Shown one piece after another: positions 11,537-58,000 of a stretch of DNA of 64,000 nt. The position numbers were made by a program, and so were the translations under genes. Source of the stretch: Nereocystis luetkeana (lineage: Eukaryota; Sar; Phaeophyceae; Laminariales; Laminariaceae); NCBI GenBank assembly GCA_031213475.1, contig JARUPZ010000013.1:10456794-10520793 (forward strand). The letters run 5' to 3'. The notes beneath the pieces are model-generated. The model was given only the letters and a program-made list of their open reading frames with translations. It did not search any database and had not been told where the DNA came from. Within the stretch, counting starts at the first letter, position 1; each line of letters opens with the position of its first letter.

Positions 11537-12638
11537 TCAACACACGACCCGATCGCCTCGCTTGTTCGGCGTCTTGCGGCGATAAAGCGGCGCCATTCCC
11601 GGTAGCTTGTGCTTAGCGCAGTGCGACGCCCCGTTGCCGTCGTCCTTGACGCCGAACGAAGCGGAAATCTGGCAGTTCTCGAACACACACCGCCGATTGT
11701 GCACGTCCACCATGCCTTCCTCTTTATGCTTCGAGCACCGCGACCCCCTCTTATCCCCGGGCATCCCGTAGTACGGCTGGGTGTTGCACCCCTCGTACCC
11801 ACAGCGCCGAGACTTGATGTTTACCATCCCCGCCATCTGGTGCACGGCGCAGCGCGTCGCGAGGGTGCCCCCCTCTATGGCGTGCGTCGGCTGCGTCACG
11901 CAGCCGGGCTCGTCGCAGCGCCGGTTGATAACGTCCACCATGCCGGGACCCTTGTGCTTGCCACACATGCTAGGTTTCTTGTCTCCGTCGTTACCGTAAC
12001 TGGGGCGGGTGGAGCACCCAGGGTGGCTGCACCGCTGCCCCTTGGTCTTCACCATTCCCGGAAGCTTGTGCATTGCGCAGTGGCTCCCACCTCGGTTACC
12101 CTCCAGCCCATAGTAAGGCTGCACGGTGCACCCCGGGAATTCGCAGTGCCGGTGGACGATGTTGATCATACCTGGGTCCTTGTGCTTCGCGCACCTCTTC
12201 GCCTTGGGGTCGCCGTGCACCCCGTACGTGGGCTGGGTGAGGCAGCCCTCGAACTCGCACCGCCTGCTCTTGACGTCTACCATCCCGGGCAGCTTATGGA
12301 CCGCGCACCGCCGCCGCCTCTTCTCTCCCTCCGTCCCGTAGTACGGCAGCGTCGGGCACCCCGGATGCTCGCAGCAAGGAGCCTTTACGTCGACCATGCC
12401 CTCCATCCGGTGCTTGCCGCAGCGCCGCGCGCGCCTCTTTCCCTTGACGTTGTATGATGGGTAAGTGGAGCAGCCCTCGAAGTCGCAGCAGCGACTCTTG
12501 ATGTACTTGACGCTTACCATGCCCTCGGAGCGATGTGCGGAACACGCCGTCGGTCTCTTCTCGCCCTGTATGCCGAAGGATGGCCGAGTGGTACAGCCGG
12601 GGAACGCACACTCATTGCGGACCAGCAAGGCGATGTCC
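11537..12638 (-). CDS. EsV-1-7 repeat protein (nine Cys/His repeats)
   Basis: A 363-residue open frame (plus a few residues to the proposed acceptor) contains nine tandem repeats of about 38 residues with the pattern C-x4-C-x16-C-x2-H-x12, for example CEFEGCLTQPTYGVHG followed by CAKHKDPGM. This is the EsV-1-7 motif, named from a phaeovirus gene and found in large numbers in brown algae; one member, IMMEDIATE UPRIGHT, controls early sporophyte development in Ectocarpus. The Cys and His probably bind zinc, which is inference. Every repeat keeps the three Cys and the His; the last has one extra residue between the second and third Cys, and the first has a longer linker. No in-frame ATG precedes repeat 1; a good acceptor (GACGCTTACAG) at 12639 suggests an upstream exon carrying the start. 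The C-terminus after repeat 9 is short and basic. Confidence 0.85.
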
Positions 12639-14798
12639 CTGTAAGCGTCGTCGAGCGAGGTCGGAGGACAGTGTCTTGCGTGTTTAGCAGGGCTGCGACT
12701 TGGCCAACTAAAAGTCGCCGACTAGCAACTAGTTGGCTATGATACATCGGTGTTACAGATAATTGCGTGGGGTAAAATGCGAAGTTCTGCGTCTTTGCAT
12801 CATCTGACTGGCGTGCGTTCGCGGCTCAGCGCGAGCTGTATATTGATAGCGACTATATATGTTAGAAGTCAGTTAGTCGGCTTACTTCGCAAACCGACGA
12901 TTCACCAACATCAGGTCCCGACATGTTAAAGCCGTTTGTATATTACTACTGAATACAGACCGTATTTGCATTTCGGGGCAGTGGTAGCCGTGGAGTCCGG
13001 TCAGATCACAACCCCACGGAGCCTTCAGCATGCAAATCATGACATCGCAGCTGCACGGTTCCAGAACATTTTCACGAGTGGAGAGAGGGGCCAATTCGCG
13101 CGGCCTCCAAAATATACAGGCGGGGGGCTTTACGCGGCCTCTGAAAAATATAGGGTCCCCCCTTTCACGGCTCCCAAGCATACCGTAATAATGCGAGTAA
13201 ACGCCTCCCCACCCCCCGAACCGACTTTTCGAGCTCGATAATAATAAGAATCTCAGCGCCGAAAAGGGTGGCCGTAGACAGATCTCGTTCAGGATCGTCC
13301 GAACACGGGTCGTTTGGTGTTGGCGCCTTCTTTGTTACGGATTATCGAGCTCGAAAAGGCGGTGCGGGGGGAGGGGTGTCTACTTGCACCGTCACGGAAT
13401 ACGGCATGCCAGATTTTTTATCTGAGTCGAGCCGGAGATTCGCGCCACTCGACCGATCAAAAATAAAGCAATGCCCTATCTTAATATGCATACCCATTAC
13501 CAGGTGCACGTCATATGCCTTCCACTAGAGCGCACACAGTCGACGACAGCTACGAATATGCACCAGCGCGACTTCCAAGCGAGTGAACCACCCTTTCTTA
13601 CGAAACAATATGTGGCCAGTCAGTCCTAGATGGAACGGCGAAAAGTCTCGAGGTGACCAATCGCTCTGTGAGAAGGAGAGCGGCGAAGTCAACGGTTCTA
13701 GGGCCGACGTACATCACGAGCCGAGCGTTTCAAGGGCAACTTCAGCGAGGGCTAGTCGGTGGAAGCGCCACTTTTGGGCTGGGGGGCTAGGGAGGCGGAG
13801 AACAAGGATGCCGCCGTTCGAGTGTCGAGACGTACTTCATTGAGGAGTTTGGCGTCTGCAATGCTGTCGTACGTCACGAGTTTTACAAGCAAGAATCTGA
13901 TCCCAACGTTTGGAATAATATTTCCCATGCACCGCAGCAATCACAAAGGATATTTGCGTTCGTGGGTAGGAAAAAACACAACACACAGCAGTGAGCCTAG
14001 AGCTGAGAAAAGAGGGCACAAGTGGATATTCAACGGACAATCCGCCATCAGCGAGCACTGATCTAGACGTTATAATGGAGAAGGTCTTGCAAACCCTTTT
14101 TAGCACGTGGAAATTGAAATCGTCCGAAATTGACGAAAAACAGGAAGGGCACAAGGTACTCGATCTTGGCCAAACGCCAACACAATATATCGTGTACGCT
14201 GAGAGAGAAGTGCACCATCAACCAATCTCCCTGCGAGTATACCTGCGGGCCCACTCCTGTACGAGTATCATGTGATAAGTGCTTGCACCATCGATTTCAC
14301 TTGTATTTATTGTCTTGAGGTGTTGTATTTGCTTCATATTTATATTCGTACATATTTTCATAATTTACTCTCCCCGAGGTACACTATACTCTATGGAGTT
14401 ATTGGAGCCCGTCTTGTAGTCACGGGCTAGATTACGGCGACGAGCAAATGTGAGAACAGCAACAGCAGCAATCATCGTCCAACTACAAACTTTTGAATGG
14501 CAAAAAAGACGTATATCAAAATCAAATTAAAGCAACACCTTCAGAAATCTGCGCCCTCGTGCATCAACTCCTCCAACGACACTCCCGCTGCCTCACCCAC
14601 TACACCGTAGTCTTAATGCGACCTGGCCCAGATTTCGACAAAATTGGTGATTGTACACACTCACTCCTACTGGTAAGTTCATCTTCAATACGCGAGAAAA
14701 TCCCAGGCGGTCCTGGACAGGGAATGGATTAGGGATATTGTTTCAACTCAAGTATATTCCAACCATTGCGTCGAAGCCGGGCCACGGTCTCCCCCGTC
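12639..14798. other. Region between the EsV-1-7 gene and the Gln-rich gene
   Basis: Should contain the promoter and any first exon of the EsV-1-7 gene (minus strand) and the 3' flank of the Gln-rich gene. I could not identify the missing first exon. One open frame at 13970-14275 is listed separately. AT-rich DNA with weak core-promoter-like words is present, but none is distinctive enough to call. Confidence 0.3.
13970..14275 (+). CDS. Short hypothetical open frame, possible terminal exon
   Basis: The frame is open from 13970 to a TGA at 14275, with an ATG at 14075. The part from that ATG (66 residues) has a mixed, non-repetitive composition that looks coding: MEKVLQTLFSTWKLK, then a Lys/Glu-rich stretch and QYIVYAEREVHHQPI. 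No family is recognised and no convincing splice sites were found. Its position between two minus-strand genes and the lack of other exons keep confidence low. Confidence 0.25.
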   Translation, partial: EKTQHTAVSLELRKEGTSGYSTDNPPSASTDLDVIMEKVLQTLFSTWKLKSSEIDEKQEGHKVLDLGQTPTQYIVYAEREVHHQPISLRVYLRAHSCTSIM

Positions 14799-15575
14799 TC
14801 ACCTCCGTCTACGCTGCTCCGCTCTTCCTGGAGACTCCATTGACCCCACCATCCCATCCACAACCCCAACCCCGCCGCCCGGAGGAGGAGGAAGGCCTCC
14901 TCCGGCCATCTGCATCTGCATCTGCACTGGATGCGCCATCACTCTCCCCCCCAGATCAACTCCCAGCAGTCCCTGACTCCCCGCACCCCCCCCGCCAGCA
15001 CTGCTGCCGCTGTCCACGCCCAACCCCATTCCGCTTTGGCTACCGGTCCCTGACATGACAGCACCGCCCATCATTTCTGACGTTGCGGCCGCGAGCGCAG
15101 CCATCGTTGCCGCCGAGTCTGGCGGTCTCGGCCCCACTAGACGCGATTTCAGGCTTCGCCCGGCAGCGGACCCCCCGGTCAGGGATGCACTCGTGCCGCG
15201 GTTCTCGTGCTGCGGCTGTGCCGTCGGCAGCCACCCTTGGTGCCCCCCTCCCGCCGTCACCACCCCATGCATAACTTCCCCTGGGGTGGCGGTGGCGGCC
15301 GAGGAAGCCCCCACGCCAGGCAGGGGCGGACCTGAAGAGTGGGGAAGAGGAAGATGTGAAACGCTCGGGGTGGAAGATTGCGGGTTGCCGTGAGCCGCGG
15401 CAGCCATGCCGCCCATGCCCTCGTACCCGGCGCCACCCACCGTATAGAAACCCGCGCCGACGCCGGGTAGCCCTGGCGGTTGTGGTTGTTCTTGCTGTTG
15501 GGGTAGTTGGTGTCCAGATGGAGGCGCTACGTGAGGGTGCAGGGGGTGGGTGGGTTGAGCAGAATGCATAGCAAC

Positions 15576-15618
<43 letters not shown>

Positions 15619-15651
15619 GGTTGTGGTTGCTGCTGTTGTTGCTGTTGCTCG

Positions 15652-15684
<33 letters not shown>

Positions 15685-16693
15685 AGCTGCTGCTGTTGCG
15701 GGTGCTGCTGTCGCTGCGTTGGCGCCTGGGGGTGACTCGACGGAATTATTGCCGGCTGCTCATGCTGGACGGCGGCAGAGTGGTGCTGCAAAGCAGCCTG
15801 CAGCTGGGGCGGAGGTTGATGTTGGGGTAGAGGGACTTGGTGAGCCGCCGCCGCAGCTGCCGCCGCCGCCGCCGCCGCTGCTGCTGCCGCTGCCGCCGCA
15901 GCCGCAGCAGCATCAGCTTGATGCCCCGGCTGAGGAATAGACTGAGGAGGCTGTTGACCCGACGAGGACGCTTGCACCTGCTGGGGCCAGTGAGCCGCTT
16001 CCAAAGCCGGCGCTACTGGTGCTTGCATTGGTGTCGCAACCGAACCACCACCCACGCCAGCTTTGGCAACACCCGCAGTCGTCGCGGGTGCCGCAGAGCC
16101 TACAATCGGCAGAGTCTGAGGTAGGTAGGCGGGGTAGGAGGTTGCGGGCAGCCCTACCCCCCCGGCCGGGCCGAGAGCGCCTCCGATGAAGTAGTCGAAT
16201 TTTGTCCCAGGCGCCGACTGGGCGACTACTCCCATCATCCCCGCAGCATCTCCACCTCCAGCGGTGTCCGCCGCAGTCACCATCATCGGCAGGCCGATCG
16301 CGGGCGGGGCCGGACGGGGGCCCAGGTACGAGGTGTTGGTGTTGAACCTAGCATCGACGCCTACGGCGGCCTGTGCGACGCCTGGAGAAGCTGTAGTTGC
16401 CGCGGCTGAGGTGGCGTCCGATGCAGCACCCCGCATAGCGGCGAGCTCGCGCGCGGCAAGCTCGCGGGTTTCTTCGGTACCGCTCGGGGCGATGGGTTGC
16501 TGGTGTTGTTGTTCATGTTCCTGTTGTGGTTGCTGCTGTTGCTGTTGTTCCTGTTGCTGTTGTTCCTGTTGGTGCTGTTGTTGGTGCTGTTGCTGATGTT
16601 GTTGCTGCTGTTCTTGTTGCTGCTGCTGTTGTTGGTGTTGTTGCTGCTGCTGCTGCTGTTGTTGCTCGAGTTCCTGTTCCTGCTGTGGCTGTG

Positions 16694-16725
<32 letters not shown>

Positions 16726-17059
16726 GATTGGGGTTGGGGTTGGGGTTGGGCTTGCACTTGTGGTCGTGGTTGTGGCGGTTCGTGTTGCTGCTGCTGCTCG
16801 TGTTGCTGTGGTCCATGCTGCTGCTGTTGGCGCTGTTGGCCCTGCTCTAGTGTGTGTTCTTGCTGCAGCTGCTGACCGTGGCTTTGGTGTTGCTGGCCAT
16901 GCCGCTGCTCGGGCTGTTCCTGTTGCAGAGTGTGCTGCCCGTTCTCTAGCTCGAGGTGTTGGTTCGGCTGCTCGGGTTGTTGTTGCTGGTGCTGCGCTTC
17001 TATTTGCACTGGCTGTTCCTGCGGCTGCTGGGGTCGCTGCGGCTGCGACGCTTGCTGCG

Positions 17060-17103
<44 letters not shown>

Positions 17104-17387
17104 TGCAGCAAAAGCGGCTGCTGCTGCCCCCCTGCGTCGGAAATATCCTCGAAGGCACGCTTGCGGCCAGCCTCCGGCTGTCCCGTGGAAGTAGCATCGC
17201 GCAATTGCTGGTGGCACTCCCTGCACCAAAGCCCACCGGCCCGCAGACCAGACAGCCTAACGAACAAGTTGACTTCATGCAAAGAGCCTAGCTGCTCGAG
17301 CTGCTCCCGGGTGATCACCCGCAACTGACGGTCTCCGGTGCAACCGGACACAAGCCCACATGAGCCCAAGATGGGCGAGGCAGACAT
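14799..17387 (-). CDS. Gln/Ala/Pro-rich low-complexity protein, possible nuclear regulator
   Basis: One uninterrupted frame encodes 862 residues from the ATG at 17387. The first 100 residues are ordinary sequence with a CRECH motif and a basic patch (EAGRKRAFED) that could be a nuclear signal. Then come a poly-Pro run of about 14, several hundred residues of Gln-rich sequence with pure runs up to about 15, a middle segment rich in Ala/Gly/Thr, a poly-Ala run of about 23, a second poly-Gln block, and a Gly/Met-rich tail. Such composition is typical of transcriptional co-regulators and RNA-granule proteins, but that is inference; no domain is recognised. An upstream ATG at 17432 is in frame, but a strong acceptor (CTCTCTCATCTCTCGCAG) lies between the two, so I prefer 17387 with a spliced 5' leader. 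The reverse strand also reads open for long stretches because of the CTG/CAG repeats. Confidence 0.7.
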
Positions 17388-18366
17388 CTTCCGTGCTCCT
17401 GCGAGAGATGAGAGAGTTCGGCAACCGCGCATGTGGTAAGTTGGTTGGTGTGGTGCGGGCGTCTGGGGGGGTGGGTGGCCATTTTTTGTTGTTTTATCCT
17501 ACTGCGGGCCGTGTACATAGCACGCGCAGTATGCGTGCTGGTGTGCTGGTGTTTACGGGACGACCTCAGGGTGAAGCTGTGCGAATATTAGCCCAACAAT
17601 AGAGAAATGTTACTGGGATTAATAACTATCCATAATGCACGGAAATGCGTGCCATGCAGCGTCATCAATTAATAGCGGCTGCCGTCAAAAACTGATGACA
17701 ACGACGGTACGCTTGACGCTCTTCTATCTTAACGCAGACAAAAGCAGCACGCCATCCCTCCCTGCTTTCGAGTCGTATCGACAAAAAACACACAAATAGT
17801 ACGTATTCCACGACAATGGTTGTTGGTGGCATACGCCTCAACTAACCCTTATGGAACTGTCGACGGAAATATGACGACAACGAAAGACAACTGGCAATGA
17901 CCACACTATAGTAGGCACGCGAAGCAACGCTGGCAGTCAGGGGATGGTGCCTCAAATGTCGGAGCTCCAGTGCAAAAAGTTGCACAACACGCGCGTAGCA
18001 TGAACTATCGTATGCTGCACACTCAGGCTACAGCAGTAATACCAGGTACAGCATCATACTGCTATGGGAGAAGGCCGCACATATACCTGGCAATTTGTTT
18101 CACAGTGTTAGTAGCTGGGCAGTAATGTGGGGGCGTCTTTATGCGCGAAGGAGCGCAACAGGAGCCGGAAGGTTTGCGGCAGCGCAACATGAGCGGCAGG
18201 CGTGCTAGCCCCTCGCAGGACCCTCGGAGGGCCGCCGGAGGCAAAAAAACGTGATGCATGCGTGGATGTAGGCCCGAAAAACAATTGGCTCAAGAGTGAC
18301 GTCAGACGCCCAACACTGTTTTTTCCACCTACGGCCCCTGCTATTTTTTTTTTTTTTTTTTTTTTT

Positions 18367-35935: not shown

Positions 35936-36168
35936 AGATCGGTTGCAGTTCACACGTACCGACAGACCTTGCTATCTACGAGTAAATCCAACAACACGTG
36001 TCCCCACCTAATGGCTTCACTCGTTGTCGCTGTTACTTTTTCGTTGCTTTGTGTTTTTTCCGGTCTCTCGGACCGATTCTACAATTTGATGCCACTGGCA
36101 ACGAACGAACGGACGAACGAACGATCGATCGATCGATCGATCGTTTTTTTTTTTTTTCTCAACCAAAG

Positions 36169-39100
36169 CTGGCCAGGGCGGCACGCTCAGCCCGTCGTAC
36201 TTCTCCCGCGTCGACGGCGTCTCAGACTTCCGCCCCCAGAAGGGCAAATCTCCCGCCGCCCCAGAAGGGAGACAACCAGCTCGGCAGGCGTTGCACGGAA
36301 CCGCCCCCCCGCGACCTGTCCTTCCGCGTCCTCCAGACGCCCAGTGGGCGTCGGATATCTCCGGAACCTCCCTCCCAGATGAAGAAGCAGCCGGTAGAAT
36401 GCGACGACCGGAAAATGTTCCCGCGGCGGCTATCCCCTGGGACGACCAGGGGAAGACTACTCCGAACGCGGGTGCTTCGGGTGATCGGGCGGTGTCTCCG
36501 GGGCTGCTGCAAGACAGCAAGCTTTCCACGGTGAGGAGGGAGACACAAGTGCCGCCGAAACGGCCGAGGCGTAGGAGGAAGAAAGGGGCCGCGGCAGCCG
36601 GTCCCCCTCAGGCGAGGGGTGCCGGTAGTACTTTAGCGTTCGGTGGCAAGGGACCAGAACTCGGAACCCAGGCGGAGAGTGTTTCAGCTTGTGGTGACAA
36701 GGCGCGGGGATTCGGGACGCCTGGTGGCGGAGGTGGTGGTGGTGGTCGGGGTGGGGGTGGGGGGGTGCTTTCTGGGGAGCAGGAGGCGAGCTGCGGGAGT
36801 TTGGCGAAGGGTGGGAGTAGCCCGGGGAAGAAAGGCGCAGGCGGGCGTGAGGGTCGAACGGACGAGGCAGAGAGCGGTGCCTTTGGGAAGTGGGAGGCAG
36901 ACGAGGTCGATGTTTACGCCGTCCTCGACTTTGAAGCTACGTGCGAGGACCGAAGCATTGATGGGGGCAGGTGATTGCCTTCCTTTCGGTTTCGCTGAGA
37001 TGGTGTCGTGCCGTTGTTCTGTCGCGATGGGTGGGGCAGTAGGCTAGGCTGAGGCGTTGTGCTTTGTGCGGATGCATGGCCTTCGGGCGGGGCGAACTGA
37101 AGTGGCGGGTGGGTGACGACGTTTGGCCGACAGCAAGCGGACGGGAGTAGCACAGCAAACGGACGGGAGTAGCTTAGCGCATGCAGCAGCAGAAGTCGCA
37201 TGGTATGCCTAGTTTTATTGCATACTCGTCGGAACAACTATTAATAGGCGATATCGGGAAAAGTAAGTAGAATGACACCATTGAGCTTGCAGGGCTTCAA
37301 TCCCGTGACCGCTTCTACTCGATCGCGGTGTTAAATAGTCCCGCCAGCATTGCCTATCGCCATGATGGCACAACAAGACCGACCCAACATAAAAACTGTG
37401 CCGTACAGTAGTGGTTCGCCAGATTACCGCAAGTCCTGTTTTCTTGATCATCCCCTTCATGCACGTCATGCTCAAACGCTATCGCCCGCGGAAAACCGCA
37501 TCCTGCCCGCGCCCTGACCACCGTATAGCACTATCACACTATTACGGGGGACCATAATAAATAGGACCTGCGGTACACACAAAAACCTATATATTTCTCT
37601 GTTTTACTAGCAGTATTTGGTCCCATTAACTATGGTCCCCCGTAATGGGGTGATAAAATGACACACACCCAGGGACGAATCGCTGAGCCTGCTTCCTCTT
37701 CAAAAAAGGGTGGCATAGACAACCAGCACGGTGGCGTTGGAACTGCCTCATCGAGACGTTTCAAATGGCCGCATCGCTCGGTGTTTCAACTCTCCCCGTC
37801 GCCCGAGAAAATCGGCTTGCACGTTGGTCCGAGGGGGTAATGTTGTCTTTGTACCCGTGTGTTATCGTGCCTATGTCCTGAGCTATATCCCGGCGGGAGC
37901 GTTTTCTACTCCTTACGCTGTTTTTTTTTGTTTTTTGGCACAGATTTGGACCCCCAGAGGTGATCGAGTTTCCCACGGTTCTGCTGGATGCTCGGTCCCT
38001 GGAAGTCCTCGACGAGTTCCGCGCCTATGTCCGCCCCGTTAAGAACCCAACGCTCACCCCGTTCTGCACAGGACTCACCGGGATACAGCAGGTGCGTACC
38101 GTCTCGCGCCTCGCGCGGCCGGTAGCAGCGGCTGCGTGCACCCGGCACGTTCTCCACGTCGTTTGCGGTTGTAACCCGCCGAAAATACATACCATCACTG
38201 CGCCCCTTCTCCCCCCTTTGCCCCCTGCCCTGTCGGGTGAGGTGCGCCACCGTAACATGGCTGGCCAGGTCGATACAACACAGCACGTCGAAATATAATT
38301 TTCGCCTGCGAACATTTTCCTCCCAGCAGGAGACGTAAAAGGTCAGACGCTGCCACTCCAGGCCGTGGCATGTGAAAAGGGTCGGCGTTTTCATATTTTG
38401 CGTCGTTCGGGCGGATGTAAGGTCATCATTCCCTAACTGAACAATAACGTGTAGCGGATAGTGACAAAAGACGCGACGTTTCTGTTATCTGCTTATCGTG
38501 AATATTTTGTCACGAATCGTGCCATATTTCTTTGGAAAAAAGCTGGGAAATATATATATACCAAGTATAAGACGTTGAACATATAATTCCCTGGTATATA
38601 TACTTCGAAGGATCGAAGAAAATCGCGAATTCTTTTTTTCTGAACGCGACACCACGCCATCTTAGAAACGTCCCGAATCGTGACTCTGTCTCCAATTTTC
38701 TAATTTGGATTTTTTGTGTTAGTTGAGGTATGAAAGACCCTTGGCGGTGCGAGCGCTCTCGGGAAAGTTTGTTGGACGTCACACCCGAATGCTCCGCCCT
38801 TGACGAAGAACCACAGAGGCAATTACCGTAGAAGCAGTCCAGTTCGCACAGGGATGCCATGGCTGTATTGAGCGCTCGATTTTTCCGGAACGGGAAGGCG
38901 GCCAATACCGATCCTGGGAGGCGTTTTGGGGAACATCTGGTCGAGAAAGAGCCTTCCGAAGGTATATTGTTCGACTTTTGTCAGCACCCCCATCGCCTGT
39001 CGAGGAAAACGAGAGCTGACAAGCGATAGTAGCACCTCTGTGCGAACTGAACGCCCTCAACGGGAAGGCGCCTTCCAATCGATCTGGAAGTTTTGCGAGC

Positions 39101-49166: not shown

Positions 49167-50462
49167 CTAAATCGAAACCGGCATGGAGCAACCGCCCCCG
49201 GCAGACCTAGCGTCAGCCTTATCACTCGTACCATCCAGCCGACGGAGTTGGCTCTCTCCCCCACCTTCTAGCCTCTCACCAGAGCGTTTCAACCGGCCCA
49301 TCCCCTCAGAATCCTCTACAGGCACTGCGTCGCCCACTCCCCCCGCCCACAAGTCTGCAATACAATCCCCACTAGGGTCCTTCCCGTTCGAAGCAAACAC
49401 CGAAAACGGGGACGCTCCAACGCCTCCTAGAGTTGTGCCACCGCCTCCGACACTACCCAACCCCCTGCCAACGCCCCCTAGCATTGTGCTACCGCCTTCA
49501 ACACTACCCAACCCCCTGCCGGAAACGCCACCAGAACTCCACATCCTATCCTTGCCATCACCCCTTAGAGTTGTGCTACCGCCTTCGGCACTACCCAATC
49601 CCCTGCCAGAAACGCCACCAGAACTCCACATCCTATCCCTGCCATCTCCCCCTAGAGTTGTGCTACCGCCTTCGGCACTGCCCAATCCCCTTCCAGAAAC
49701 GCCACCAGAACTCCACATCTTGTCCTTCCCATCGCCTCCTAGAACTGTGTTACCACCACCTACACTACCCAATCCCCTGCCCGAAACGCCACCAGAACTC
49801 CACATCCTGTCCTTGCCATCGCCTCCTACAATTGTGTTACCGCCTCCTGCGCTACCCAATCCCCTGTCGGAAACGCCTCCAGAACTCCATAGTTTCTCCT
49901 TGCCATCGCCTCCTAAAGTTGCCGTGTTACCGTCTCCGACACTACATAATCCCCTGCCAGAAACGCCTCCAGAACTCCATAGTTTTTCCTTGCCTACCGC
50001 CTGGACGGCCCCTGCGTTGCTAACATCGATGGAGCCGTCCACACTCGCCCCAGCTAAGGCGGCCGGGTTCCACGCGAGGGTAGAAACCGGAGGAGGGTTC
50101 GAGCAGCACCGAGCGAGCATCACCGCGGATGCAAGCTCATTTTCGTCAGCTGCGTCGAGCAAAACGCCATTCAGGTCTCTCCAACGCCTCAGTACGTGCT
50201 GGGTCGTCGGGTTCGACGGGAACGGCTCGTCGCCGATACGCGCGGCGTGCCCATCGCCCTCGTCAGAGACCCCCCGGGAGGCAGGCTGCCGAGCGAACGG
50301 AGGAATAGCCGGGAAACACAAGCGCGTGTCAGACGGACGCTTCCAGCGACGTCTGTAGTGCAAAAAATGGCCATCGTGGCAATCGTAGACGCGTGCTACG
50401 GCAAGGGTAGTTATAGCGCACAAAACAATATGAGGCCCCCTCGCTCGAAGCGTTCTGTACAT
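49167..50462 (-). CDS. Gly/Ser-rich tandem-repeat protein, hypothetical
   Basis: From the ATG at 50462 the frame runs 431 residues to a stop at 49167. The first 35 residues are basic then hydrophobic (VLCAITTLAVA), resembling a signal or anchor sequence. A mixed segment with RRWRDLNGVLLDAADENELA follows. The middle is about nine tandem copies of a 20-27-residue unit of type MWSSGGVSGRGLGS-x-GGG-x-T-x-LGGDGKD. The tail is acidic/basic without repeats. I do not recognise it. A T-rich acceptor-like tract ends directly at the ATG (GTTGTTGGACAAG), so this could instead be an exon continuing from 51377. The plus strand is also open across the same repeats (49183-50358, Pro-rich units LPNPLPETPPELH); I prefer the minus strand because its non-repetitive ends look more protein-like. 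One of the two is likely an artefact of repeat periodicity. Confidence 0.4.
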   Translation of the reverse strand: MYRTLRARGPHIVLCAITTLAVARVYDCHDGHFLHYRRRWKRPSDTRLCFPAIPPFARQPASRGVSDEGDGHAARIGDEPFPSNPTTQHVLRRWRDLNGVLLDAADENELASAVMLARCCSNPPPVSTLAWNPAALAGASVDGSIDVSNAGAVQAVGKEKLWSSGGVSGRGLCSVGDGNTATLGGDGKEKLWSSGGVSDRGLGSAGGGNTIVGGDGKDRMWSSGGVSGRGLGSVGGGNTVLGGDGKDKMWSSGGVSGRGLGSAEGGSTTLGGDGRDRMWSSGGVSGRGLGSAEGGSTTLRGDGKDRMWSSGGVSGRGLGSVEGGSTMLGGVGRGLGSVGGGGTTLGGVGASPFSVFASNGKDPSGDCIADLWAGGVGDAVPVEDSEGMGRLKRSGERLEGGGESQLRRLDGTSDKADARSAGGGCSMPVSI

Positions 50463-51376
50463 CTTGTCCAACAACAGATTTTGTGATGAAAAAAAAAAAC
50501 AAGCGTAACCCCGTTGGGGCGCCGAGATACCGACAAAACCAACGATTAATGGCCTTGGCGTGATCAACCGTCTACTATTAATAGCAGCGTAACAGTCCAG
50601 CACTACGGGTAGGCGCAAGGTTGCTCCGGTACCGGACGCATCTTTGCATGGTGACTCGGACACCAATCAGTATCATCTCCCAATCACGCAGTGGCGGCTG
50701 CTGTAACCGTCGACTCTCAATGTCGATTTTGTTTCCCTCTGAGGTCTGAAGAGGGCTATAAGATCGATACACAATCCCATGGGCCAGATGATCAACGAAC
50801 GATACCGTAAAATACACATCGGGTCCAAAAATACATGGTTTGCACATAGTAGTTCCTCGGTTGCAATTGTTGTCGCAAAGGTTGGGGAAACCCGTGAGTG
50901 AAAAAACATTGGGGCTCAAAAACGAAAGTGCGACAGCTACCGCAGCACGCCGTCGAAGCTGGGAATACTTGTTTGGAGACGCTACGATTCAGTCAGCGTT
51001 GTAGAGTACCAGGGTAGTGGGTTATCCAACCAACAGTATGTCTCCTTTATTTTGTGAGGGCGACTCGGTCTAGGCGTTAAGTGATCTCCGGGGTGAACCC
51101 CTCGCCACGCGCTATTGGTCAGAACAGAGGTTCACACACCTTGCCTTTTCTTATTATTTTCCCACCTGGAAAAATTGATGATAGCCGAGAATTGAACCCA
51201 CGCTACCATTGCTGACTGCGTAGAGTAGTAGGCTATCCCTTCTAATGAACAAGCGCTCTCCCTGGGCATAACTTTGATGCAGCGCCCCGCAGGGGCAGCG
51301 CCTGCTTGCGCACAAGCTTGCACGAGCTAAACCTAAACTTGCACACGTCATGGGAAGTCAAGCATAAACAACTTAC

Positions 51377-52062: not shown

Positions 52063-55000
52063 CTACGCACGCACGTTCAGCCGTCTCCAAGACCCCTCCT
52101 CGTACAGAATAGCCGCCGCGGCCCCTGCCGAACCCTCCGTCTTGCGCCAGGACGCGACATGCACCATAAACCGACGTTTGGATATTTCCCCAATTCCATC
52201 TGCCATGCGGCGGCCTTCTACGAGACCCGCGTCGGCCGAAGCCTGCGCCGCCCTCGCCTCAAAGCCAGCCCCAGCGACGTCCGAGGTGCCAAATATATCC
52301 ATCACGGTGGCGCCAAGAGCCGTGCTACTACCGCCGCCTGCTATGGTAGCTCGGGCGTCCGCCGCGACGGCAGCGTAAGCGGCTGTAGCGGCAGCCAGGG
52401 CCGCATCCTCGCTCGCGTTCTCAACGCTCGGGGACGCCCGCGAGGAAGAAGGACTGCTCAGGTCAACCAACAAGGGGGCTGAGGCGCCGGTACCCCCCGT
52501 GGGGTCTACGTCGACCAGGGGCAAAGGTTTTGGTGCACACTGAGTAGTGGAGAGCGGCGCAGCGCGGCCAGGGGGAGACCCATTAGCCGGTGGCGGGGCG
52601 GCGGCTACACTGTTACCATGAGGAAATCTCACGCCGGTAGAAGGGTTAAAGATTTCGTCGCCAGCCTTGCTGTCCATCGCGATATTGGCCAGGAGGTCGG
52701 CACGAGCGTTAAGGTTACGGGGCACGTGCTGCCACGTGCACTCCAGCTTGTTTTTCTTAACCGCCTCGCTAGCCTGGTGAGGCGTGTGGGTAACCGGGTG
52801 CGTGACGGGACGCAGACGTTAACGCGGGGGGGCGACAGGTTGTGTTGCGTGTGTGCGTTTGGGTGGAGGCAATCCATGACAAGGTCGGCCTCACATGCGA
52901 CCGGTCGTCAATACCAAAAGTTATTTCAGGTGGCAATGGACCCCGTCGATGAGCTCGAGTAATCTGCTGACCACCCAGAGACGATGGGGTCGACCACTCC
53001 AGAAACAAACCCTTCTGGCCGAGAAAAGAAGAATGCCGCCCGTAAAAAAAATCCCATCGCGCAATGCCTTCATACCCAACAATGACAACTCCGACTCCGT
53101 CATCTTCAGGATCACTTCACCTTGCGGTGAAGGTTCAAGAGCTTCGGCGCAGCCACCCTCCATCTTCCCATCATCTGGCACGCAATTGGAGGAGCGCGCA
53201 GCAGGCGAAATCACAGCTGTAAAAAAATAAGACGGTTTCCTCGAGTCAAGCAGACGCAGTTATGAGTCCGATCCCACGAGCAGCGCGGCTCGTGCGTGAT
53301 TCGAGCAAGCCGCCGCGTCACAGCACAGCATTGGTTGCCAGATGTGACTTCTCTCAGGGCGTTTTCCATTTTTTCCTTTTTTCTTCCACTCCATAATCAC
53401 GGACTAGATTATGGCCATGAGGTAACAACCACAACCACCACAAGCACAACAACAACGAGCACAGCAAATATGGGGTACCGCTAACCGCAGCCTCTACGTC
53501 CGTCTGCCTTGTAATCTCTTTCACACTGACCTGCTGGATTACTAGCATGGAGTCCCCCTTGACGATGAGCCGCTTGGCTCCTAGACGAACGGCCGCAAGG
53601 AGACCGAGAATCATCCCTTCGTACTCGGCCTCGTTGTTGGTCTTGTGGTCACCGATAAACTTGTACCCGCTGCACAAGAAACAGACAAACTGAGCCCGTT
53701 AGCAGCGCGCTCCCGTTTCGGGGACAAACTACTTGAATTTACTGTAGACCGAAGTATTCGTTTCTGTACAGTGCAGTTCTAAAAGGGCTAATTTCTATGT
53801 TTTTCAATCCGTCGGAGGATTTTTTTTGTTCTAAACGGAAGAACGTCTCTGTCATCGGAGATAATTTACCCCGCCAGCCGCGGTAAACAAAGTAGGGCGA
53901 CAATCAAAAAGCCTCACTACAGCGGTAGGAAATCCGGAAACTGTGATTGAAAACAAGCGACGTGTGTACAGGCAAGAGTGAGAACGGACCGCGAAAACGA
54001 CGGCAGTGCCACCAAGGTTAAGGTTTTTTTACCACACGAAAAAGAAACCCGCCATATAAAGACGACGCAGCTATATAGTGCTGCGCTACACCAAAGCTCC
54101 TGTCAAGGCCTTGACGGACAACTCTCTCTGCTGTCAAATATTAAATGACTGCGTTAGCTGGTAGATGTCCCGACTGAAGCGCGCGACAAGCAACCAGTCC
54201 CATCGACGACGCTCCTGTGCACGCATGCCTCTGTCCATAAAACGGGGGGAACCAGAAGACTTGAGAGACCGACCTTTGGGATTTACGCACAATAGTCGAC
54301 GATCATGACCACAATCACTATGATCGCCTAAATGCCACGTCGTTGCAGCAATGTCATGCCTGTGGTGGCGGGCGAAAGGCAGAGCCCGAAACGAAAAAGG
54401 TGCCAAATACGAAAACGCAACAAATACCTGGTACGACCTCGGAAAGGAAGAAAGACGTTGCGATAGAGTCAAGGGATGCCCCTTCACCCAACTTCAATTG
54501 GTTGTATTAATCTACAGGGTGCCCCCATGCGTCACGCCAGGGGTGCGAAACAGCAGGGGCATCCAAACGTGGTGAAACAGCAGTGCGGTGTTCGCTTCTC
54601 CCTCATACCCTCGACATTGCCATCCCCCGAGACACAATCTCCGCATGGGAGCTCCCACCGTTGCCTGCACGAGATCAATACAGCCCACTTCGCCCAATAC
54701 TGGGTTTCCTGAGCCCTTGGTAACTGCACTCCCGTTTTGACAACGAACAACTTGGAATTAGAGTCAAAACTAGGTGTATGTACAGCAGTGCAAGCTAGAA
54801 GGACTAAACGCCCGACGCGGCCTTGCCTCGGCACTGGGCAGACCAGGGTCATGTCGGAGGCACTTCACCCACTGTTTTTCTTGCCCTTTCGAACATCCAT
54901 CAACCGTTCAAGATTTCTCAACGCAGAAAAAAACAAAAACAATACCCTGGTACTCCGGAGTGCGATTTATAGCCCTGGTACGATTTCATAAACATATCCC

Positions 55001-58000
55001 GCCACAATATCCAAGCGGTGTGCCCTCCAAAACGTGGGAGTTTTTTCAAGCAGTGGAGCGTTCACGGAAACTGCCGCTACCGATACATTGTGAGCGGGCG
55101 AACCAAAACACGACCTGTACAGCTCCATGTTCTTGTCGTCGAAAATGACCGCCCCGGACCCGGACAAGCCCGGATTTCCCCTGCTACCGCCGTCGAACCA
55201 CATCGTCGCCGTCCCCGGCGGAGCAGCGCTGGGTGCGTCCGGAGTTACGGCAACTTCATTCACGTAGGCGTTGGCCTCCGCGGTTGACTTGAACTTCTTG
55301 AACTCGGCGCCCGAAAAGCCGTTGGTCTGGCCCAGAGAGCGGCATAGGAGGGGAGAGGGGTCAGCCATGCCTTCACGCCGATAGGACTGCACCCCCGGTG
55401 AGGGGACAAGTTATTAGAAATTTGAGTCACATGTACTGAAGTATGTTTCTGCACAGCGCGGTACTAAAAGGGTTACAAGTGCTAAAAATAATGAGGTTTT
55501 GGTACGAAGGAGGCGCGTGACGTCAGCTACCGAGGTAATGTCAGTTTACCTGAAGGGTTTTTCAGCCGTTCTTATGAAAAGGCTGGCGTCACAACGGCTC
55601 CGCAGGGTTGAATGTGCATCAAGGATTCTCTCGTAAAGTCAGCTCAACTGAACGTTTTTCACCCATCCTTATTCATAGGCCCTCGTCACAACGGGGTTCC
55701 GTAGGGGTGCGCGTGCGCCAACGATGTTCTCCTGCGCACCCGGCCTCAACAGTGTGGGCGTTGTACCCTCCCACCCCCATCCCCCCAGCGTTGCCCAAAC
55801 AAACCAGCAGTTCGGCTGCTGGTAGACAGGAACGCTAACCAATCACACCCCAACCCCAAACTGGCAAACCTGCTTGGACTAGAATGGCGTTTGCACGAGC
55901 TTCGCCAGGCTGTGACAGAAAGGGGTACGTACCGGTACGCCTTCGCCTGCCCTAAGAAGCAAGCCTCACCCTTGGCCCTGCCCGGGCCTAGTCTGGTGCA
56001 CGCTGATGCGCGCTGATGCACCCGGCATACCTCAGACGCGATTGCGCGAGCTACATCGTCGCCCTCTGGTCACTCGCACGACTGTCTGAGGGCTGCTGGA
56101 GGGTTTCGTGACAACTCCCATGGCCGACCTGATACCCCACCCTATGTTACCAGGAACTATTCAGTGCCTTACGCAGCGCCAAAGACCATGGAACATCAGA
56201 AGCCTTCGCTGCGAAAGAAAACTACTGCAAATCGACGAAAATAACGATATTTATAAACGAAAAAAAGCATACATACCCGAAAAAAATGAGTCGGTGCTTG
56301 CGGCTCTACCTCGAGAGTTTGCAGTAGTGCGAGCTCCAGCATAATGCGGAAAACGCAATCAGCTCCGGTACGTGGAATTCTGGAATTGTACCTTGGACTC
56401 GAGGTGAATGCGAAACATGCTACGCGCTGACGAAAGTGCGTATATTGACCTAAACACCGGAGATTTGGCATTTCAGCTGTGAGCGCATGACACATGACAC
56501 ACAACACTGGACAGAGCAGCGAAGAGGCATTCGTCCATTCGTCCGTAATGGAGTTTACAGCACGTGACCTTCTGCAGCTCTGCAGCTCTGGTAGGCTACT
56601 ATATACTGTAGTTACGCCTTAGAGCAAATAACAGGTATAGCGATAGCAGGTATAGCGATCAACAGGTGCTACGTTCGGGTATCCAAGCGATAAACAGGCA
56701 TAGCGATGAACACGCACAGCGAGAAACGGGCATAGCCATACTGTGAACACAAAGAGAAGCGCGGCCGTATCAACTATCAACCGTCTAGCTCGAGCGCGCA
56801 GCAGAACGACTACGGCAAGTCTCAAGACACTGCGCGCGACTCGTACACCCCCTTGCATTCGTACTCGTAGCCCAGACGTTATATTCTCCATTCCCCGACC
56901 TACTGTAGCTGCCCGCGTTGCTTCTCGGCCGATGCCGAATTCGTGGTGTCCAATCGTCACTTTTCCTCCCTCAAGTTCCGGAAGGAAAGGATAAAAAGAA
57001 AGCATCTACACGCTCTGATAAAGCAAGGGTGGACGCCATATTCACGACTACCTACGGGCTGCGTGGCGGCTCATGGAACAGCAACAAACGTACAAATCCT
57101 GGCACGTACTGGTAGTACAACTACTTTAGCGTTGCGGATATGACTGCGGTAAGTTATCATCGAAACTTCGAAACTCTTGCTGGCACGCTGGCTCTTCTTT
57201 CAGTGTGTGCACGTTTGACTCCGCTTATCGAAAAAAATATCGGAAACTCTTTTCAAATGCAAACAGTTCAAAATTGTTGCATTCATATTACACGGCACAG
57301 GTGAGGTGCCCACTTTTAAAACCATCCATCCGCTTTTACGACTTTTCGGGAGACAAGAACAGGTATATCGGGGTGTGACCAGAAAAACACTAGTATGGCC
57401 AGTAGTAAAATATGAGACCGTACCAGGTACTATTACGGGGGACCATAGTAAATAGGACCTACGGTACACATAAAAACCTCTATATGTCCCTATTTTTACC
57501 AACAGTATTTGGTCCTATTTCCTATGGTCCCCTGTAATAGAGATAAGACCACGATTATTGGCGTGTCACGGGGTGGTCCAAAAACGAGTACCCCACGGAA
57601 CCGATATTCGCGGCTGTTCTCGTAAAGTGGATAGCGGATGCGCCCGGTTTATGAGAAGCTACAGAAGTTCCTCTAGTATTAATAGGCAAAAAATCTCTAG
57701 AACGCTGCTGCTGTGATGTGGTGGTGCTGTTCGCTCGCGTCAGAATGAGCATGTGATACGTATTATCCCTGGTATCACTTGGGCTCCTTGCTATTAATAC
57801 AGGTACTTCAGGTGCGTCTCTATTCAGTAGTCAACGCTGACTAATACCAACTAGCTGTGGGTACAGGTACTTCTCTATTCAGTAGTCCGAGCTGACTAAT
57901 ACCAGGTGTCGGCGTAAAACTATTTATGAAACCATTTGCAGAGTAGAGAGCGTTCGGGGCTCGAAGCACCAATCTTCTCAAGCTGGCAAGTTCATCTCAC

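Follow-up and report, generated by a model that had tools for sequence, protein, structure and literature searches.

A nine-repeat EsV-1-7 gene of the brown alga Nereocystis luetkeana and its candidate glutamine-rich 5' exon

The stretch of DNA analyzed here, referred to below as the window, comprises 64,000 nucleotides of the Nereocystis luetkeana genome (GCA_031213475.1, contig JARUPZ010000013.1, positions 10,456,794 to 10,520,793; G000:C13:10456794-10520793 in the 465-Mb, 1987-contig genome searched in this study), and it carries on its minus strand a gene for a protein with nine EsV-1-7 repeats. The repeats are encoded by an open frame of 394 codons (11537-12721) without internal stop, whose exon portion (11537-12638) begins directly after an acceptor AG at 12640-12639 and ends with a TGA stop codon at 11537-11539. 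The first-pass annotation, which did not state the strand, had the gene end at 12638, i.e., at the first base after this plausible splice acceptor. The Pfam model PF19114 (EsV_1_7_cys) matches the array protein far above its cut-off (E 3.5e-118, 385.6 bits versus 25), with nine stretches past the search threshold, in agreement with the family membership that had been proposed from the letters; the array gene is a real, intact-looking member of the known EsV-1-7 family.

The cores of the nine repeats, located by motif scan on the minus strand, lie at 12533-12610 (repeat 1), 12410-12487 (repeat 2), 12296-12373 (repeat 3), 12182-12259 (repeat 4), 12068-12145 (repeat 5), 11954-12031 (repeat 6), 11840-11917 (repeat 7), 11726-11803 (repeat 8) and 11609-11689 (repeat 9). 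A six-frame scan of the window returned eight occurrences of the strict pattern C-x4-C-x16-C-x2-H, all within the array frame, and relaxing the loop to x14-19 added solely the ninth repeat, whose loop is one residue longer (x17) and in this respect departs from PF19114. Nine regular repeats in one frame had been described, of which eight are exact; the GM(V/I) reported after each His is present in eight repeats and replaced by GMA in the ninth, while the near-constant 38-residue spacing holds for seven of the eight intervals, the first being 41 residues. When the residues of the array protein were shuffled 20,000 times, at most two motifs were obtained, versus nine observed. When columns were counted with a single loop residue of repeat 9 omitted, C1, C6, C23, H26, G30 and M31 were the only ones without variation in the nine repeats; the window repeats have Gly in the loop and mostly HK or HR after the last Cys. 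The array is markedly basic (calculated isoelectric point 9.4, charge of approximately +33 at pH 7), as is the C-terminal tail read from the translation and motif scan (11540-11593), although the latter is not Cys-free as had been claimed, since it ends in Cys (...RGDRVVC-stop). Compared pairwise over 34 codons per repeat (28 pairs), repeats 1-8 differ by 0.37 at first, 0.35 at second and 0.56 at third codon positions, with mean identities of 57% for DNA and 49% for protein; the commoner differences at third positions, together with these identities, indicate that the array is old and maintained by protein-level selection.

A DM domain, considered as a second Pfam identity of the array, was rejected as sub-threshold (E 0.053, 13.9 bits versus 27). 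Sequence search of the PDB yielded no relative and profile search a single chance-level match (E 0.8), PHROGs returned nothing beyond one weak match (E 0.058), no relative was confirmed among prokaryote genome contigs with the single-protein query, and the PF19114 model had matches in none of 14 control genomes. In brown algae the EsV-1-7 family has many members, one of which controls early development. In the available part of one report, an expansion of the family in brown algae is described (PMC12993054), with which the situation in the N. luetkeana genome agrees, and an excerpt of another presents the hypothesis that its members are zinc finger transcription factors (PMC12629598). A glutamine-rich member was not described in the literature searched, the coverage of which was partial, so that this is no evidence of its being unpublished.

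The array frame contains no Met upstream of repeat 1, which supports the missing 5' exon that had been suspected. A strong candidate for this exon lies immediately upstream on the same strand (14803-17432), in an 899-codon stop-to-stop frame which specifies, after an N-terminal region that carries the basic patch RKRAFED, a series of Gln-, Ala- and Pro-rich tracts, and which matches no Pfam family. The frame is terminated by a donor at 14802 (GAG/GTGAGA) that leaves two codon bases (phase 2). This donor is the strongest between 17498 and 12640 of the minus strand and the sole one there within 1.5 bits of its own score; it falls within the highest-scoring 0.3% of the 8108 GT sites on both strands and, among 177 open frames of at least 100 codons, is the only phase-2 donor of such strength at the end of a frame. 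The open stretch before repeat 1 offers three acceptor AGs (12708, 12693 and 12639), all of phase 2 by codon reading, and of these 12639, the best, was judged by eye to have the most pyrimidine-rich tract. Joining 14803 to 12638 keeps the frame open over 1243 residues, with the Gln/Ala/Pro-rich part preceding the nine basic C-terminal modules. From these donor and acceptor signals, an intron of 2164 bases (12639-14802, GTGAGA...TTACAG) is predicted, and the missing part of the array gene is probably the long glutamine-rich exon just upstream.

The predicted intron harbors a dispersed repeat resembling a miniature inverted-repeat transposable element (MITE; 13181-13384), with inverted arms at 13207-13242 and 13341-13376 that are 92% complementary. 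The best 40 of 109 candidates for this MITE-like repeat gave 70 match rows, in which the window itself and single-arm matches are included; numerous other contigs carry copies, of which the longer are 70-79% identical. Two frames within the intron, at 12882-13334 and 13837-14217, were considered as extra exons and discarded: neither matches a Pfam family at cut-off, and the former overlaps with the MITE-like repeat. Within the glutamine-rich exon, the N-terminal region encoded at 17127-17387 (minus strand) contains paired cysteines (GSCGLVSGC ... WCRECH), potentially an additional metal site; a search of the genome with this region gave no relative above chance level.

The array has a large number of relatives in the same genome. 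A search with the array protein found 170 matching places (best 105 of 452 candidates scored), the second-best of which by score is 39% identical, with none other above 43% among the matches listed. Counted by hand among those matches, at least ~75 other open family frames are present on 15 contigs, some of them being adjoining pieces of one array, and many of the places listed appear by eye to be clustered in a small number of regions on contigs C1, C9, C14, C24, C25 and C26. All 150 candidates scored with PF19114 exceeded its cut-off (best 150 of 1713 first-look candidates); of 30 loci taken from this family-model search, 22 contain a distinct array frame with at most 112 residues before the array, several being genes already counted. 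The number of repeats had been put forward as a feature that might distinguish the window gene, yet the other arrays read possess 4 to 41, some of these counts being lower bounds for loci cut at their ends.

Sixteen of the loci read (L002-L009 and L011-L018) are here termed HA-type, as the residue following the last His is mostly Ala. They share with the window array the Cys/His spacing and a mostly 38-residue period, but differ from it in this Ala and, in 13 of 16, in having mostly Asn (FN.EGSKKAAYCKQHAEDGMV-like) at loop position 13, where L011, L013 and L014 have Gly as does the window array. In the array frame, within which the count was made, 12 to 213 residues precede repeat 1 in HA-type loci, and these residues include a Met in 14 of the 16. 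One of these loci, L009 (G000:C12:3445000-3454900), is a single 1739-codon open frame with 41 EsV-1-7 repeats.

Loci with HK after the last Cys came from two sources: the similarity search, which contributed L010 among ten hand-picked regions, and the DNA pattern HK-x-PGMV, which gave 18 matches versus 2 in the control. The window gene itself accounts for three of the 18; among the other 15, repeats were found in seven (L022, L025, L031-L034 and L036) and none in eight (L021, L023, L024, L029, L030, L035, L037 and L038). L033 is the gene of L011, otherwise of HA type, and L025, L031 and L032, which appear to be split by introns, were left out of scoring. In four paralogues, namely L010 and the three remaining pattern loci (L022, L034 and L036), a single frame holds a C-terminal HK-type array (mostly HK or HR) of 4-6 repeats after 303 to 572 low-complexity residues (the stretch of L036 being cut at the locus end), and PF19114 is the only Pfam family that matches them at cut-off. 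They would thereby resemble the window gene as predicted here, whose array would be the largest seen among HK-type genes with a long low-complexity part, and they differ from it in their lower number of repeats, in having no intron between the two parts and in an unrelated low-complexity sequence. A second HK pattern returned 29 places (control, 2), four of which are the window gene; of the three other short stretches extracted, two (L077 and L078) appear to be interrupted by introns, and no repeat frame of 60 residues is present in L079. Additional places with a degenerate HK-type repeat pattern occur on scattered contigs, at G000:C8:4548450-4549704, C21:1120866, C24:9071043, C27:7009520, C30:5904855 and C444:22156-24370.

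At the level of single repeats, the closest unit to the window repeats belongs to L010 in five of nine cases and to L036, L002, L014 and L022 in one case each. L010 also has the highest mean best repeat score against the window array among 20 loci (98.0). A grouping into sub-types by similarity was nevertheless rejected, as the HA-type locus L014 is second (91.8), ahead of the HK-type loci L022 (86.9), L036 (85.9) and L034 (69.8, the lowest of the 20). Since overall similarity gives no clean separation, the HA/HK division is drawn from two features, the residue that follows the last His and the frame preceding the array, and not from a tree.

On balance, we lean towards a single host gene with two coding exons, extending on the minus strand from 17432 to 11537, that would encode a glutamine-rich, nine-module nuclear DNA-binding regulator of approximately 1243 residues. 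From its N-terminus, the protein would consist of the region with the basic patch, a Gln/Ala/Pro-rich and probably disordered middle part, and the C-terminal array. Each module would most likely hold one zinc ion by three Cys and one His, and one metal per module fits the invariance of these four residues in all nine modules. The basic array may bind nucleic acid, which is probably nuclear DNA, and the low-complexity part may recruit the transcription machinery or concentrate the protein, a Gln-, Ala- and Pro-rich make-up being common in activation or condensation regions. The whole would regulate genes and would be laid out like IMMEDIATE UPRIGHT (IMM, Ec-27_002610), a developmental regulator of Ectocarpus with which it was compared by description only: in the available text on IMM, five 38-residue Cys-rich repeats are placed in its C-terminal region (PMC12853178), so that the repeat length and C-terminal array are alike while the window gene has nine repeats. 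Mutation of IMM, according to the part of a further source at hand, alters the first division of the sporophyte initial cell in Ectocarpus (PMC7457493). As regards this layout, donor, acceptor and phase are compatible in the window gene, for which the splice is predicted, and the four paralogues have their long N-terminal stretch in one frame with the array. A nuclear DNA-binding regulator is favored by the invariance of the metal ligands, the basic array, the Gln/Ala/Pro-rich part, the zinc finger hypothesis for the family and the presence of the domain in a transposase (see below). If correct, this transcription factor-like layout would provide a concrete hypothesis for the family, i.e., a disordered activator joined to an array of zinc modules, and exon-by-exon reading may miss the non-array part of EsV-1-7 genes. 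What is new here is the candidate for the remaining part of the gene and, tentatively, a division of the family into genes that are array-only and genes in which the array has a long low-complexity partner. It is a conjecture, and one that we regard as doubtful, that brown algae possess two such kinds of EsV-1-7 gene throughout, the former with many members in tandem clusters and the latter scattered, combining a long, disordered and activation-like region with an HK array and representing lineage-specific transcription factors including IMM.

A number of observations weigh against the joined gene. Apart from their own locus, the first 87 residues of the predicted protein match the genome at chance level only (E 0.27), and the 5' exon consequently lacks the backing of conservation. 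The donor matrix was a generic one rather than one trained on the species, and it assigns a score of just 0.55 to a donor inferred for the window's RNase H gene. Between 14798 and 12720 there are 57 other phase-2 pairs of ATG and donor, the best scoring 7.2 versus 9.7 for 14802. The array's own frame has 37 residues before repeat 1, as HA-type loci do. Furthermore, L011/L033 fits the HK pattern, and its repeat 1 is preceded by no more than 137 or 213 residues, according to the search expression with which the repeats were located; counting this locus leaves the long stretch in four of five single-frame HK arrays, and six more HK-type places are intron-split or not resolved (L025, L031, L032, L077, L078 and L079). 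Several of these points would suit two separate genes, the glutamine-rich frame stopping at its TGA (14799) and the array gene, encoding mainly the array as do most members of the family, having a short first exon somewhere in the 12.7-14.8 kb interval. Such an exon could end at 12887, with a donor of the right phase (GAA/GTAAGC, the score of 7.2 given above), and the HA-type loci, with their short same-frame leaders and frequent Met, would be its model. The longest form of this exon (13181-12887), however, touches the edge of the MITE-like repeat, whereas donor 14802 is stronger, has the right phase and falls exactly at the end of the 899-codon frame; in L010, moreover, the top-scoring locus against the window array, a long low-complexity stretch lies in the array frame. 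We therefore consider two genes to be fairly unlikely, and retain the two-exon gene as the preferred structure.

The main rival to the DNA-binding mechanism is RNA or protein binding, and it is compatible with either gene structure. The array could be a scaffold of this kind, its charge and the glutamine tracts serving assembly into condensates or RNA granules; DNA binding by the array is, after all, something we infer, its only other Pfam match is the sub-threshold DM domain, and no solved structure is related to it beyond chance. In transposases, the N-terminus is the usual seat of DNA-binding domains. An EsV-1-7 domain occupies precisely this position in TcMar-2_Ec32, a Mariner-Tc1 transposase of Ectocarpus, as stated in the accessible portion of its description (PMC12477816); the domain that this transposase has in common with the window gene speaks against a scaffold, which we deem possible but the less probable role. 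That the gene was recently acquired from a phaeovirus, or is part of an endogenous viral element, is highly improbable in view of the family frames on 15 contigs and the probable intron. Neither viral protein families nor transposase families were found in the 31 of 94 window frames of at least 120 codons that were scanned, and searches of IMG/VR gave no relative of the array, the family repeats or the N-terminal region; the latter result is weak, as the known gene of EsV-1, the presence of which in IMG/VR was unchecked, was itself not recovered by those searches. Equally slight is the likelihood of a decaying pseudogene, for which the array exon without start codon might be taken: its 394 codons are free of stops, the ligands are intact in all nine repeats, and changes are biased to third codon positions.

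Elsewhere in the window, a 499-codon frame on the minus strand (49167-50666), in which a Gly/Ser-rich unit of 29 residues is repeated about six times (an 87-base tandem repeat in the DNA), matches no Pfam family. Pieces of an exonuclease gene are present on the plus strand (36090-38298), with a match to RNase_T (PF00929, E 6e-06) at 37882-38298 and a first exon placed by eye near 36900. An RNase H gene of host-like character has its exons at 52063-55410 on the minus strand, where RVT_3 falls below cut-off and the catalytic pieces were read by eye, while PF01693, the RNase H1 N-terminal domain, is above cut-off.
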